A DNA stretch of 64,000 nt from Gaertneriomyces semiglobifer (lineage: Eukaryota; Chytridiomycota; Chytridiomycetes; Spizellomycetales; Spizellomycetaceae): the NCBI GenBank assembly GCA_025558075.1, contig JAHLKF010000007.1, positions 620,001 through 684,000 of the forward strand. The letters are read 5' to 3'. Below, one piece after another: positions 10,719 to 33,062 of the stretch (position 1 is its first letter; each line of letters starts with the position of its first letter). Position numbers and translations under genes: made by a program. The notes beneath the pieces were generated by a model that saw nothing but the letters and a program-made list of their open reading frames with translations, was not told the origin of the DNA and made no database searches.

Positions 10719-12887
10719 TCAGCGCCCCATATGATGATGCTCTTCGGAAGGCGACAGGGTCAAATGATAAATGTCGGGGTTGCTCATCGTACGCCTGGTC
10801 ATCATCCCTGGTGCTTCCGGATCTCCTGAGGTTTGGGAAAATCCGCATCCGCCGGGAACGAAATATGGAAACATATGATCCAAGTCCATTTGGCTCATCT
10901 CAAAGTTGGAACAGACTTCATTTTCCCGGATGGTGCCCAAGCGTCGCATCTCATCCATTGCATCCAAGCGCACGTCGCCCATTGAATCCAGGCGCATGTC
11001 CTTGAATTCCGGAAGTACGAGTCCCGCTTCATTGCCAGCTATCATGTTTCCAAGTGGCGAAACTTGTTCCGGGTGCGGGACGTTGTGGTGGTCGGTGAGT
11101 GATGGATACAAATCATCAGTAACGTGGTTCGGCATCACTAGCACGTTCCAAGGTCCCAAATTGCTGGTATCAATACCATCGGCTTGAGCAAGGCCTTGAT
11201 CCAACCCAAGATTCAAGCTGACGTTATTTATGTTGTTGCTCATCTCCACGCCAAACTTCGGTATCGAAGTTCCGTCCGCATCCGAGTTTGCCGGTATCGG
11301 AGCATTCATCATTTGTTCTAACAATTGCATCTCGTCCATTGCAGCCACATTCGAACCATCGTTGACCGGCGTTGACATCAACAGGTCAGGTTGTCGAATG
11401 GAAATGGGTAGTGGGGGTGGCGGTGGCTGTTGCGTAGGCGTGATTACTGAATGAACTTGCCCACGCATACGTTGAACAGGTTCGAATACAGAATGGCGAC
11501 GACGTGGCACGCCACCAGCAAAGTAAGGATGATGCAGCGACGCAGAGTATGAAGCACCATGGGGAGACGGAGGTAGTGGCGCTATTGCAGCGGCTGCGGA
11601 TGCAGACCGATACATATGGATCGGTTGATGTGATTGAGCTTGATGCGTCTGTCGCAGCGGAGTCGGAAACGAGGGTTGTGTAGGCAAATGCAGCGGCCCG
11701 CCGTGGTGGGGATTGTACCCACCACCAGCAGCACTTGGAGGTTGAGAGACAAAATCTCCACAATCAATCGAGTGGTGTCGAAGTAAATTGGGTGAGCCAT
11801 TAGGTGATGGATAGTTCACCGCTGTGTACATGTGGATGTTGGGTAGGGAATTATGACGCGAAGGCGGTGATGCTGCAAGGCCGTTGCTTTTCCGTCTAAA
11901 ATGCGGGGGCGCACGAGGAAGCTCATCTGTAGCTGATGCCGGAACGCCCATGCTGTCCGCAGACGGTGTTGTAGGCTCTCTCACTGCCGTCACTGCATGT
12001 GCTTCGGATTTAGCCGTACCAGGTGCCCGAACTTGGACTGGAACGAATGTCAGCATACAGTTGGTAGCTTCGTTGGTGGGCTTTCCATCTGAGGCTTTCT
12101 TGTTCTTGTCTGTCGGCGAAAACTCTACTGTTTCAAGCAACCCAGCTGTACTGCCGCGTTTACATTTCGCTCGTCGATTTTGAAACCACACCTGAACAGA
12201 ACGCGAGGTCATGCCAAGCTCGTCTGCGAGCTCAGCCCGAACCGCTGGGGTTGGCATAGGATCTCTGTCGAAGGCTTCCTGTAGTCGCATCAACTGAGCC
12301 GATGTCGTTCGCAGCCGCTTCTTCTTGGGTACCGACTTGGACAACAGTAAGTCATGCTTGACAGACTCGAGTGTGGAGTGAATGAATTGAATGCCGGCAT
12401 CACCCTCTAAGCTTTGGGGCTCAACTGGTGTCGTTGGGGCAGAAGCCGCGGTGGTATTAGCCGTACAACTAAGAACAGGGGTAGTAATGCCAATTTGTGC
12501 AGACTCTTCCTCCTTCTTCACATCAAACGGAGGGCTAGCGAGCAGGGTGGCACTTTGAGACGTCCCAGCGGGTTCTTGCGGCGTTCCAACTGGAATATTG
12601 AAGAAATGTGGCTGTTCATGAACCCACGACAAGTAGTCGGCAGAGAGAGGGGCCACAGCACTTGCAGCAATGCTCGGCGATTCCCCAAGCACATGTGATC
12701 CTGACAGAACAGGTGCAGTCATAGGACCACGAGCCAATGTACCATTGAATCGTGACTTAGGGACTCTCGCATCATTCCCAGCTCCAGCGTGAATGTCCGG
12801 AGCTGGCGGTAAGGTGAGCGTCATGGCGGGCATCTGCCGCCGCTCGTGCAGATGGCTCGGCGGCGAATGTTGATCGTAGGGCGACAT
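10719..12887 (-). CDS. Homeodomain transcription factor
   Basis: A single uninterrupted frame of 722 residues from the ATG at 12887. A homeodomain spans about residues 188-246, with a basic N-terminal arm ('KKKRLRTT') and recognition helix 'SVQVWFQNRRAKCKR'. The remainder is low complexity: Pro/Ser/His-rich regions, a Gly/His segment and a C-terminal acidic, Met/Asp-rich region that could activate transcription. It is a typical (non-TALE) homeodomain protein, as in fungal Yox1/Hoy1-type regulators; its targets cannot be read from sequence. The absence of introns contrasts with its neighbours. The upstream 360 bp contain short frames that may be leader ORFs. Confidence 0.9.
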   Translation of the reverse strand: MSPYDQHSPPSHLHERRQMPAMTLTLPPAPDIHAGAGNDARVPKSRFNGTLARGPMTAPVLSGSHVLGESPSIAASAVAPLSADYLSWVHEQPHFFNIPVGTPQEPAGTSQSATLLASPPFDVKKEEESAQIGITTPVLSCTANTTAASAPTTPVEPQSLEGDAGIQFIHSTLESVKHDLLLSKSVPKKKRLRTTSAQLMRLQEAFDRDPMPTPAVRAELADELGMTSRSVQVWFQNRRAKCKRGSTAGLLETVEFSPTDKNKKASDGKPTNEATNCMLTFVPVQVRAPGTAKSEAHAVTAVREPTTPSADSMGVPASATDELPRAPPHFRRKSNGLAASPPSRHNSLPNIHMYTAVNYPSPNGSPNLLRHHSIDCGDFVSQPPSAAGGGYNPHHGGPLHLPTQPSFPTPLRQTHQAQSHQPIHMYRSASAAAAIAPLPPSPHGASYSASLHHPYFAGGVPRRRHSVFEPVQRMRGQVHSVITPTQQPPPPPLPISIRQPDLLMSTPVNDGSNVAAMDEMQLLEQMMNAPIPANSDADGTSIPKFGVEMSNNINNVSLNLGLDQGLAQADGIDTSNLGPWNVLVMPNHVTDDLYPSLTDHHNVPHPEQVSPLGNMIAGNEAGLVLPEFKDMRLDSMGDVRLDAMDEMRRLGTIRENEVCSNFEMSQMDLDHMFPYFVPGGCGFSQTSGDPEAPGMMTRRTMSNPDIYHLTLSPSEEHHHMGR

Positions 12888-28544: not shown

Positions 28545-31457
28545 ATGCGTTCTGAACGCAAAAGCACCAAGTGGGCGACCGCCGCCTTCCTTGGGGTGCT
28601 CGCGGCTGCTATGCCAGTCGTGCGGGGTGCTACATCCAATCCCGGATGTACTACTCGTGAAGTCACCCGTTACGATCAAACCGATTTCCTCTTTCTTCTC
28701 GACGGATCTGTTTCTATGTGTCCGTACATCGAGCAGATCACTTCGCGCATGTCCAACTTTGTCCAAAACATCAAGGCGAAAAACATCACGGATGCCCGCT
28801 TTGCTATTGCTGCTTATGGTGATGCACCGGAACTCAAGCTCGGGTTTACTGCCGACATTTCGAAAACGGTCGCCGCATTACAGAAGTTCGGTTGCTCACA
28901 AGGTGGTCAGGAAGCAGGTTTCGAAGCCATTCGTGTTGCTCTAGCTGATAACGACGGCGCGGACTTTTACAAAACTTGCAACAGCAGGAAGTGTTCAGGC
29001 TGGGAATGTTGGATCACCTCCATTGTCGTTGACAGCGATCAAACTGGTTGCGATCTTAAATGGCGGCCCAATGGTACCCGCTCCATTATCATGATCACCG
29101 ATGAAGATTCCGATCTTCCCTATCTCGAGAAGTACCGTATGCCAAATCAGAGCCCCGACACATCCCTCTGCTGGACCGGCAATTGTGCGGCCAGCAATAG
29201 AATGGAACCCGACTTTGAACCCAAAGCGTATAACAGTAATGACAAGCAGTACCATCGCAGCGCCTCTACCCCAATTGTCCTTGGCGCTCCCTGGAGAGCG
29301 GAGATTGTAGAGACCGCTCAGATCATCAATCGCAAGGGTGTGCAGATGAACGTCATGATCAAGACCAACGGCAATGCCAACGGAAACGGTCCCATATCCT
29401 CGTTCCACAATACCTCCAACCCGATCTGGGCGTCGAAACGGAAGAACGCCACTGACGTTGACCCTATCAAATCTGACACCATTATTGCCCAGTTCGGTCA
29501 CCCCGACTGGAACGTGCAGCTGGCCAACTTCAGCAACTTCAATCCTCAGGCTACGTACAACAATTTGATCAACAAGAATCTCCGTAACTCCCTTCAGGCC
29601 AAGGTTCTCGAGGGCAACGGTATCATGCGTCTGTTCAAATTACAGGACATTATTTCAGACAAAGGAAATACCGTCACCGACAGTTTCTTCCAAGCTGCAG
29701 TGGACATGGTTGAATACTGTCCTCCTGTAGTCACTGTCGTCCCTGACCCTGAAGTTACGACTACCACCACTACGGTTAAGCCTACAACCACTACCACCAC
29801 TACTACCACTACCTCTACCACTACAACCACCACTACTACTACCACTACTACAACAACAACTACCACCAAGGTTGAGCCCACTACCACGGTTGAGCCCACA
29901 ACAACCGTCGAGCCTACCACAACCGTCGAGCCTACAACAACCGAGGAGACCACTACTACTGAGGAGACTACCACGGTTGAGCCTACAACCACCGAGGAGA
30001 CTACTACTACCGAGGAGACTACCACGGTTGAGCCTACAACCACCGAGGAGACTACTACTACCGAGGAGACTACCACGGTTGAGCCTACTACAACAGTTGA
30101 GCCTACAACAACCGAGGAGACCACTACCACCGAGGAGACTACCACGGTTGAGCCTACTACAACTGAGGAGACCACTACTACTGAGGAGACTACCACAGTT
30201 GAGCCTACAACAACCGAGGAGACCACTACCACCGAGGAGACTACCACGGTTGAGCCTACTACAACAGTTGAGCCTACAACAACCGAGGAGACCACTACAA
30301 CTGAGGAGACTACCACGGTTGAGCCTACAACCACCGAGGAGACTACTACTACCGAGGAGACTACCACGGTTGAGCCTACAACCACCGAGGAGACTACTAC
30401 TACCGAGGAGACTACCACGGTTGAGCCTACAACCACCGAGGAGACTACTACTACCGAGGAGACTACTACTACCGAGGAGACTACCACGGTTGAGCCCACT
30501 ACAACTGAGGAGACCACTACTACTGAGGAGACTACCACAGTTGAGCCTACAACAACCGAGGAGACCACTACCACCGAGGAGACTACCACGGTTGAGCCTA
30601 CTACAACAGTTGAGCCCACTACAACTGAGGAGACCACTACTACTGAGGAGACTACCACAGTTGAGCCTACAACAACCGAGGAGACCACTACCACCGAGGA
30701 GACTACCACGGTTGAGCCCACTACAACTGAGGAGACCACTACTACTGAGCCCACTACCACAGTTGAGCCCACCACCACAGTTGAGCCCACCACCACAGTT
30801 GAGCCCACCACCACGGTTGAGCCCACCACCACGGTTGAGCCCACCACCACGGTTGAGCCCACCACCACGGTTGAGCCCACCACCACGGTTGAGCCCACCA
30901 CCACGGTTGAGCCCACCACCACGGTTGAGCCCACCACCACGGTTGAGCCCACCACCACGGTTGAGCCTACCACCACGGTTGAGCCTACCACCACGGTTGA
31001 GCCTACCACCACGGTTGAGCCTACCACCACGGTTGAGCCTACCACCACGGTTGAGCCTACCACCACGGTTGAGCCTACCACCACGGTTGAGCCTACCACT
31101 GTTGAGCCGACGGTTGAGCCGACGGTTGAGCCTACTACAGTTGAGCCCACCACCATCGAAGTACCGTCTTCTGTCGAGCCAACTCCAACTTCTACTGAGG
31201 AGCCTCCTGTTGGAGCTCCTCCCAGTGGTGGTAACACTACTACTTATATCGCTGCAGGTGTCGGTGCTGCAGGTGTGGCTGGTGCTGCCGCTGCCACCTT
31301 CTTCTACAAGAAGGGTACCTTCTCCTCTGCAATTGCTCAAGCAACAACTGGCCAGTCGGCATTTGCCAACGCGCAAGCCAACCCGTTGTACGCATCACCT
31401 ACTCAGATGCACGAGAACCCGCTCTACCAACCCATGGTGGACGATCCAATGCCGTAG
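28545..31457 (+). CDS. vWA surface receptor with Thr stalk, one TM helix and paired NPLY tail (integrin-beta/Sib-like)
   Basis: A single exon of 970 residues. A signal peptide ends near 'MPVVRGAT'. A von Willebrand A domain (about residues 45-290) has a MIDAS-type start 'DFLFLLDGSVSMC' and the later strand 'SIIMITDEDSD'; several Cys pairs are present. A stalk of about 460 residues follows, built from TTT, EETTTTEETTT and VEPTTT units, likely heavily O-glycosylated. A Gly/Ala-rich transmembrane segment ('AAGVGAAGVAGAAAATFFYKK') leads to a tail with two NPLY motifs at residues 946-949 and 958-961. Dictyostelium Sib adhesion proteins share the vWA, Gly-rich membrane segment and two cytosolic NPxY motifs that bind talin. 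Integrin-beta tails have the same motif pair. Adhesion or phagocytic attachment is inferred. Confidence 0.85.
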   Translation: MRSERKSTKWATAAFLGVLAAAMPVVRGATSNPGCTTREVTRYDQTDFLFLLDGSVSMCPYIEQITSRMSNFVQNIKAKNITDARFAIAAYGDAPELKLGFTADISKTVAALQKFGCSQGGQEAGFEAIRVALADNDGADFYKTCNSRKCSGWECWITSIVVDSDQTGCDLKWRPNGTRSIIMITDEDSDLPYLEKYRMPNQSPDTSLCWTGNCAASNRMEPDFEPKAYNSNDKQYHRSASTPIVLGAPWRAEIVETAQIINRKGVQMNVMIKTNGNANGNGPISSFHNTSNPIWASKRKNATDVDPIKSDTIIAQFGHPDWNVQLANFSNFNPQATYNNLINKNLRNSLQAKVLEGNGIMRLFKLQDIISDKGNTVTDSFFQAAVDMVEYCPPVVTVVPDPEVTTTTTTVKPTTTTTTTTTTSTTTTTTTTTTTTTTTTTKVEPTTTVEPTTTVEPTTTVEPTTTEETTTTEETTTVEPTTTEETTTTEETTTVEPTTTEETTTTEETTTVEPTTTVEPTTTEETTTTEETTTVEPTTTEETTTTEETTTVEPTTTEETTTTEETTTVEPTTTVEPTTTEETTTTEETTTVEPTTTEETTTTEETTTVEPTTTEETTTTEETTTVEPTTTEETTTTEETTTTEETTTVEPTTTEETTTTEETTTVEPTTTEETTTTEETTTVEPTTTVEPTTTEETTTTEETTTVEPTTTEETTTTEETTTVEPTTTEETTTTEPTTTVEPTTTVEPTTTVEPTTTVEPTTTVEPTTTVEPTTTVEPTTTVEPTTTVEPTTTVEPTTTVEPTTTVEPTTTVEPTTTVEPTTTVEPTTTVEPTTTVEPTTTVEPTTTVEPTTVEPTVEPTVEPTTVEPTTIEVPSSVEPTPTSTEEPPVGAPPSGGNTTTYIAAGVGAAGVAGAAAATFFYKKGTFSSAIAQATTGQSAFANAQANPLYASPTQMHENPLYQPMVDDPMP
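29755..31150 (+). repeat. Coding minisatellite of the Thr/Glu/Pro stalk
   Basis: Starts as ACN-rich poly-Thr, continues as irregular EETTT/VEPTTT mixtures with higher-order repeats of about 90-150 nt, and ends (30760-31100) in about 19 nearly identical 18-nt units encoding VEPTTT. Confidence 0.9.
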
Positions 31458-31844: not shown

Positions 31845-33062
31845 CTATTTAGCCCAACGCATCAACATTTCATAAACAGCCATGACCGTGTACTTGCGGT
31901 TCTCCGCTTCTCCCCACACTAGAGATCGTTTCGGATTGTAGAATACCTCATCATCGACCTCCTCACACTTACGAGGTAAGCAATGCATAAATCGCCAACT
32001 CTTTTTGGCCCCACCGCGAGCAGCCATTTCTTCCGTGATCTGATAACCGGCAAAGTCCTTCAAGCGCTTTGCCTTTTCTGCCTCCTGGCCCATGGACACC
32101 CATGTATCAGTTACAATAACATCTGCATCTCTAACGGCTTCGCGAGGATCATGCGTAAACACGACCGTTCCACGCTCTGATCCTCCTGACGCTTCACCAA
32201 TGGCATAGTCTACGACATCAGCATCGCAATTGTATCCACGGGGCGTAGCCACAGTGAGCTGAATTGGACCCAGACGCGGTAATGCGACCAAAAGGGAATG
32301 GATAATGTTGTTGGCGTCGCCAACCCATGCGATATTTTGCGCGGGGAGGAGTGGTAGCGGCAAGCCCGCTGGTGGAGATAGACTCAAAGCCTCCGGTAGA
32401 GATGCCTCATATAGGGTCATGATATCAGCAAGTCCCTGAAGCGGATGGAACTTTGCAGTTAACGCATTTATGACTGGAACGTTAGAGTTCTCGGCAAGTG
32501 TCTATTGAAAAGCGAAGCCGGAGCTTAGTGTACGCACCATATCCGCAATAAAAACTACTCGTACCTCAATTTCTTCATGACCGCCAACCCGGGCGAGTAA
32601 GCAGTCTATCATGCTGGAAACCACAATAGCAGTGTCCTTCAGTGGCTCGCCGCCTCCTATCTGGATATCTTCTTTGCCAAGAAACATGGGATGCCCTCCG
32701 TAATAAGCCCAGCCAGTTTCGGAGGAGACGCGCGTACGAGTGCTTCGCTTGGTAAAAATCATGCCTAGCGTCTTTCCCGTAAGAAACTTTTCGTCGTCGG
32801 TTAACCCAGTGCTCAACCCTTGGCGCTCTTTCCTAATCATCTGCTTGATTTCCAAGGATCGTCGTACTAGAGCGAGGATTTGCGGGGCAGTGAGATCACG
32901 CAAGGTAATCAAGTGCTTCGTGCCCTTGAAGCTAACTGTGGGCACTGGTAAGTTGGTTGACAACTGTCGAGCTTGAGGACACCATGACGATGATTGCGCT
33001 GGTGATGCCCTGAAAACTGTAAAGGGTAGCAGCTTGCTATAGGAGCGTGATAGCACGACCAT
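31845..33062 (-). CDS. Ornithine carbamoyltransferase, mitochondrial
   Basis: Two exons, complement of 31845..32501 and 32565..33062, encode 384 residues. The enzyme makes citrulline from ornithine and carbamoyl phosphate. The carbamoyl-phosphate site 'STRTR' (here 'KRSTRTRVSSETGWAYYGG'), 'HPLQGLAD' and the ornithine-binding 'HCLPRK' loop are all present. The N-terminus ('VVLSRSYSKLLPF...ARQLSTNLP') is a mitochondrial presequence. Compared with typical OTC of about 340 residues it has the leader plus a Pro/Leu-rich insert of roughly 16 residues before 'NIAWVGDANNI'. The intron is GTACGA...AATAG. It is divergent from CSM1, 312 bp apart. Confidence 0.95.

Follow-up and report, generated by a model that had tools for sequence, protein, structure and literature searches.

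In Dictyostelium, where talin occurs without a canonical integrin, five Sib proteins (SibA-SibE) are described as combining a von Willebrand factor A (vWA) ectodomain, a single Gly-rich membrane helix and a tail with two NPxY motifs (PMC9197732, PMC12686525). SibA was reported to be required for tension on talin A (PMC12686525), its membrane-proximal NPxY to be essential for talin binding, and the talin A/myosin VII complex to contact Sib tails as well (PMC9197732). Amoebal lectin-type receptors (Acanthamoeba MBP, Entamoeba lectin) similarly place an integrin-like tail in talin-bearing cells that lack integrin heterodimers, albeit with a lectin ectodomain instead of a vWA domain (PMC12686525). 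For basal fungi, a focal-adhesion scaffold was reported to be present with no integrin, and an unidentified functional homologue was left open (PMC5042518). The INT1-type proteins of Candida and Pneumocystis were called integrin-like on the basis of short motifs, in a source whose main text leaves NPxY unmentioned (PMC6685044). Here we analyzed a stretch of 64,000 nucleotides from the chytrid Gaertneriomyces semiglobifer (assembly GCA_025558075.1, contig JAHLKF010000007.1, positions 620,001 to 684,000; hereafter the window), which contains a gene for a vWA protein with a tandem NPxY tail (28545..31457, forward strand; protein P0001) that probably acts as a talin-coupled adhesion receptor. Among the literature matches listed, taken at the level of titles and beginnings of abstracts, we found no description of a fungal vWA/NPxY receptor, and a mention in other papers is possible.

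The coding sequence of P0001 is a single exon of 970 amino acids, read from an uninterrupted ATG-initiated frame that belongs to a 986-residue open frame of the genome without internal stops. A putative signal peptide (residues ~1-28, 28545..28628; hydrophobic core from residue 12, the cleavage site not being a program prediction) precedes an ectodomain of residues 29-398 (28629..29738), in which Pfam, alignment, AlphaFold2 and Foldseek indicate a vWA domain that contains large insertions as well as conserved cysteines. Residues 49-132 match Pfam VWA_2 (E 1.6e-6, above the family cut-off), and the DxSxS motif of the metal ion-dependent adhesion site (MIDAS) type, evident from the translation and conserved in the family, reads DGSVS at residues 53-57 (28701..28715). 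A stalk of tandem Thr/Glu/Pro/Val repeats found by repeat analysis (29754..31160), which may be O-glycosylated, leads to a Gly/Ala-rich membrane helix, with the best 19-residue window at residues 902-920 (31248..31304; 4 Gly, compared to 2-7 Gly in 19 residues across nine family members). The 50 residues C-terminal to the helix form the cytoplasmic tail (residues 921-970, 31305..31454), where motif scanning and tail alignment located a membrane-proximal NPLY at residues 946-949 (31380..31391) and a membrane-distal one at residues 958-961 (31416..31427), all on the forward strand. The two motifs thus start 12 residues apart, the spacing also found in integrin beta tails. An earlier note on this DNA had described this same layout from the letters, and the 970-residue frame bears it out in full. 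A glycosylphosphatidylinositol (GPI) anchor signal, and with it a GPI-anchored fungal adhesin, was considered and rejected: the helix does not end the protein and is followed by a conserved tail. An NCBIfam search of P0001 returned matches mainly in the repeat stalk, far under the cut-offs. Compared with the Sib proteins, from their descriptions rather than their sequences, the fungal protein shares the vWA ectodomain, the single Gly-rich helix and the motif pair; it differs by the Thr/Glu/Pro repeats of its stalk and by its copy number, as we found one copy in the genome, with no ectodomain paralogue at E up to 10, against five Sibs in Dictyostelium (PMC9197732).

We found the paired motifs to be a conserved feature of a protein family. 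Beside P0001, three protein searches yielded nine bacterial relatives and 17 that are fungal, aphelid or metagenomic and fungus-like, so that the receptor family counts 18 proteins from chytrids, Piromyces, one aphelid and metagenomes, with Rhizophlyctis, Phlyctochytrium, two Synchytrium species, Irineochytrium, Chytriomyces, Piromyces and the aphelid Amoeboaphelidium occidentale as named sources. Two of these searches scored the best 8000 candidates, and many matches were unnamed metagenomic proteins, for which reason a missing species is weak evidence; Sib proteins, at about 1900 residues, lie beyond the candidate length limit. Ten of the 18 members, P0001 included, extend past a membrane helix (19-residue hydropathy of 1.7 or more). 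Nine of these ten have exactly two NPx[YF] motifs with starts 11 or 12 residues apart, within 46-72 residues that follow the helix, at identities to P0001 of about 28-58% where measured. The exception, P0004, is a near-copy of P0002 from a metagenome, on a contig of 1691 bases; it reads NPW and then ends. The eight remaining members (P0003, P0005, P0011-P0015 and P0026), two of which are marked as partial in their source, stop short of any such helix. Apart from a single Gly in the helix, the alignment of the nine tails had invariant columns only at the Asn and Pro of the first motif and at the Asn, Pro and Leu of the second. Upon shuffling the 50-residue tail of P0001, two NPx[YF] motifs 10-13 residues apart arose in 10 of 200,000 cases, and in 200,000 shuffles of every one of the nine tails the paired pattern came up 0-30 times per tail. 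Because the pair is kept in nine of ten tails and so seldom arises upon shuffling, we rejected chance as its origin in the P0001 gene. Orthologues with both motifs, which the earlier note had proposed to look for, hence exist, and the layout together with the tail is kept from chytrids to Amoeboaphelidium. The note's reading as an adhesion receptor in a fungus is supported, and what it treated as a single protein turned out to be a family reaching an aphelid; its observation was right, and stronger than could be known from sequence alone. At the extreme C-terminus, P0006, P0007, P0009, P0010 and P0027 have Val as the last residue, which in three cases stands two positions after an acidic residue (STETV, STDSV, EESV) in the manner of a PDZ ligand, unlike P0001, which ends in DPMP.

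The same genome (20.9 Mb in 66 contigs) encodes a talin and a vinculin, as had been proposed for checking. The talin is made up of an exon for F0, F1 and F2, an F3 domain of the IRS/PTB type, the talin rod and a final I/LWEQ part. Its F3 domain, on contig C28, aligns with the F3 domain of talin-1 (2h7d_A) at E 2.6e-33 with 54/83 identical residues (65%) and keeps the RWAAS stretch, which, along with retained Tyr and Ile positions, we take to be the NPxY-contacting site. The vinculin is full length and nearer to vinculin than to alpha-catenin. IRS-type PTB lobes occur once in the talin and twice on contig C13 in an apparent single MyTH4-FERM gene. No kindlin gene was found: the sole PF18124 match was the talin F0 exon, below the cut-off, which also indicates that this search was able to see a distant relative. 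For integrin alpha (PF08441) the genome gave no match, with the controls silent too. The C13 gene (C13:369-2864) holds two FERM modules and begins at the contig end; no motor is seen because the contig ends there, and the assembly may lack a myosin motor. Its presence recalls the talin A/myosin VII complex at the Sib tails of Dictyostelium. Another MyTH4 match lies at C3:126244-126641, and a further FERM_M match on contig C16 falls in a frame with stops, near which three frames showed no Pfam match.

The sequences show P0001, the conservation of its tail, a vinculin and a talin whose F3 is well conserved; we infer that P0001 and its relatives would reside at the cell surface, hold a ligand there, bind talin and bear force in a motile or germinating life stage. 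We consider it probable, by analogy, that zoosporic fungi use these type I proteins as adhesion receptors of the plasma membrane, which would act much as integrin beta or SibA does, probably with no alpha partner. In such a mechanism, the vWA metal site would grip a substrate or host surface, while the long, probably glycosylated stalk would space the vWA domain from the membrane. The cell's own talin would hold the paired NPx[YF] tail through its PTB-like F3 lobe, bind actin through its I/LWEQ end and recruit vinculin through its rod, such that the tail would pass load on and a wall-less zoospore or germling could pull on its attachment surface. Aphelid zoospores were reported to attach to algae and to crawl by pseudopodia (PMC3975115), and chytrid zoospores to form actin pseudopods (PMC5461030), and the biology thus fits an adhesion receptor. 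More tentatively, and with rather less confidence than in the adhesive role itself, we suggest that the family might supply the so far missing membrane anchor of a fungal focal-adhesion scaffold without integrin. In this view, it would have arisen independently of integrins when a bacterial-type vWA domain was joined to a talin-binding tandem NPx[YF] tail, would have been present in the aphelid/chytrid ancestor and lost together with talin in Dikarya, and would possibly add a third type to the vWA adhesion receptors coupled to talin, next to integrins and Sibs. Among the candidates scored, Dikarya gave no named match.

Several observations weigh against an adhesion receptor. The proposal draws on sequence and analogy, with binding and localization as predictions. 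At the position of talin-1 Leu325, which we assume to be needed for integrin activation, the fungal talin has Asn. Spizellomyces, Batrachochytrium and Allomyces gave no named match among the candidates scored, many of the matches being nameless, and the receptor may hence not occur everywhere talin does; these three genera were among the basal-fungus representatives with scaffold genes (PMC5042518). Batrachochytrium zoospores were described to crawl when confined and to stick to concanavalin A, with no attachment to coats of collagen, fibronectin or keratin (PMC5461030), so that chytrid crawling need not involve such a receptor. The authors of the Orpinomyces study leaned to non-adhesive roles of the scaffold (PMC5042518). 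In the family itself, the Piromyces protein P0015 has no DxSxS and its gene model stops before any tail; as the model ends ahead of any membrane helix, its 3' end is in need of re-prediction. Finally, the motif pair occurs elsewhere in the genome. At C1:134200-134256 on the reverse strand, an NPLY and an NPKY start 12 residues apart in a 60-residue frame with, by eye, no receptor-like frame nearby, which shows that such a pair alone can arise by chance in 20.9 Mb; we take this stretch as chance, an unrecognised last exon being another reading. It is one of four places that a six-frame genome search with Integrin_b_cyt (PF08725) returned, at E 0.85. The tail of P0001 had the best E (0.012; 20.2 bits, under the cut-off; 14.7 bits versus a cut-off of 23.4 in the protein search). 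A place on C16 (E 0.047) reached 23.6 bits, over the cut-off, only upon adding same-frame neighbours, and has one NPIY in a 78-residue frame with no gene seen around it, and a place on the reverse strand of C22 has one NPLY in a 31-residue frame with no receptor-like frame seen around it. These three other places weaken only the pair taken alone, and conservation of the pair across the family is stronger evidence than the pair itself. As a side observation on the talin, the Asn at the presumed Leu325 position next to a retained NPxY site makes binding without metazoan-type activation conceivable. P0015, from the anaerobic gut fungus Piromyces sp. E2, has an acidic N-terminal insert and a weak chitin-binding match that stays below the cut-off.

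Another explanation would be a true integrin beta subunit that fungi have kept and that went unnoticed. The integrin beta of metazoans and filastereans shares with P0001 the DxSxS metal site, the two NPx[YF]-type motifs and talin F3 as their reader, the last being predicted for the fungus, and the tail of P0001 is the genome's best by E value to the integrin beta tail family. The fold comparison also speaks for it in part. An AlphaFold2 model of the ectodomain (mean pLDDT 82.1, pTM 0.86) was compared by Foldseek with the Protein Data Bank (PDB), and among the best 50 of 244 matches with E up to 0.001, 48 were integrin entries (best 6djp_B, E 5.9e-8), the chains of which we take to be beta subunits, the others being the related Pactolus I-domain and CMG2. 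The TM-scores by query were 0.30-0.36 and the root-mean-square deviations 7.8-14.4 Å across these 50, however, which makes this a ranking and not a proof of kinship. The sequence comparisons pointed elsewhere: profile comparison gave a probability of 100% for bacterial vWA, 75% for alpha-I and 24% for beta-I, where the alpha-I and beta-I yardsticks were sets of two or three sequences each; profile searches placed collagen VI and Mfa5 first and integrin beta-8 only at E 0.2-1.1; and a phmmer search of the ectodomain against PDB sequences gave noise only (TGF-beta receptor, E 0.56). The beta-I family PF00362 was not among the three Pfam families that matched P0001 up to E 10, nor were PSI, hybrid or EGF domains; a genome search with PF00362 found no match, with silent controls, and the stalk is of another kind. 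No alpha or kindlin gene was found either (the alpha controls being silent). We regard a true integrin beta subunit as very improbable, and we rejected integrin beta orthology, as PF00362 is absent and the sequence profiles favour the bacterial set, even though Foldseek ranks integrin chains first. Hence, what the earlier note had called integrin-beta-like holds for layout, tail and fold ranking, and not for membership by sequence.

Two further explanations concern the use of the tail and of the stalk. The family could be an endocytic cargo receptor, in which the NPx[YF] pair would serve as clathrin-adaptor sorting signals as in proteins of the LDL-receptor type and the vWA domain would capture nutrients or particles. 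NPxY is known to double as an endocytic signal. This was noted for integrin beta5 (PMC6450878), and endocytosis-like vacuoles were reported in developing chytrid zoospores (PMC8887899). Yet a genome search for PID/PTB adaptors yielded no match at E up to 1 (controls silent as well), the IRS-type PTB lobes found are those of the talin F3 and the C13 gene, and sorting would not need two motifs held 11-12 residues apart, making this explanation unlikely. About as doubtful, and marginally more so, is a sensor of wall or turgor in the encysted or growing cell, akin to yeast Wsc/Mid, with stalk and vWA domain in the wall and a tail that ties the membrane to actin via talin at the rhizoid or hyphal tip. 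A Ser/Thr-rich stalk with a single helix resembles the sensors proposed as functional integrin analogues (PMC6685044), and scaffold-gene transcripts were found to peak in germinating Orpinomyces spores (PMC5042518); on the other hand, the conserved metal site of the vWA domain suggests ligand binding, and the family persists in Amoeboaphelidium, a genus whose amoeboid zoospores crawl (PMC3975115). A talin-coupled adhesion receptor remains the explanation that we favour.

Outside the fungal group, the ectodomain is nearest by sequence to bacterial PEP-CTERM-type vWA proteins (P0016-P0024). Of the 15 family members in which the site is covered, 14 have DxSxS, with Piromyces as the exception (P0004, P0012 and P0027 start after or inside it), and TDEDSD occurs in 17 of 18. 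The bacterial proteins share the vWA domain, in which they carry D-x-[ST]-x-S and TDE[DN]SD (9/9) as well as PEAGLEAIR (8/9); they differ by the absence of a tandem NPxY tail, apart from one stray NPTF in P0019. Their bacterial assignment follows from a name for P0024 (Candidatus Binatia bacterium), PF07589 in five, TIGR02595 in P0017, and the tree alone for P0021 and P0023. In that tree, 17 fungal-group rows, with P0001 and without P0004, split from the nine bacterial rows at 100/98. P0001 and P0002 joined a Rhizophlyctis rosea protein (94/98), the Synchytrium rows grouped together (100/100), and the aphelid row clustered with four metagenomic rows (99/99), while 11 of 23 inner branches were drawn open and Piromyces sat on a long branch. 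The family tree appears compatible with vertical descent. The bacterial proximity of the ectodomain hints at an ancient domain transfer between bacteria and fungi, in either direction.

Elsewhere in the window, an ornithine carbamoyltransferase-type gene lies directly downstream of and convergent with the receptor gene (31848-33062, reverse strand; OTCace match in the exon 31848-32420), and a 722-residue frame with a homeodomain (E 1.9e-19) occupies 10719-12887 on the reverse strand. The genome also gave five chitin synthase matches.

In 2016, it was left open whether the scaffold of basal fungi is a remnant, serves non-adhesive roles or works with an unidentified integrin analogue (PMC5042518). 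The family described here offers a concrete and testable candidate for the integrin analogue of the basal fungi that bear talin and vinculin, conserved down to its tail motifs. If this proves true, talin-based adhesion would already have been working in early fungi, and a tandem NPxY tail on vWA receptors would be found in three lineages, namely animals and their kin, Dictyostelium and fungi. As the mutual kinship of these receptors is unproven, common origin versus convergence would become a testable question, and the family would provide a molecular handle for studying zoospore attachment.

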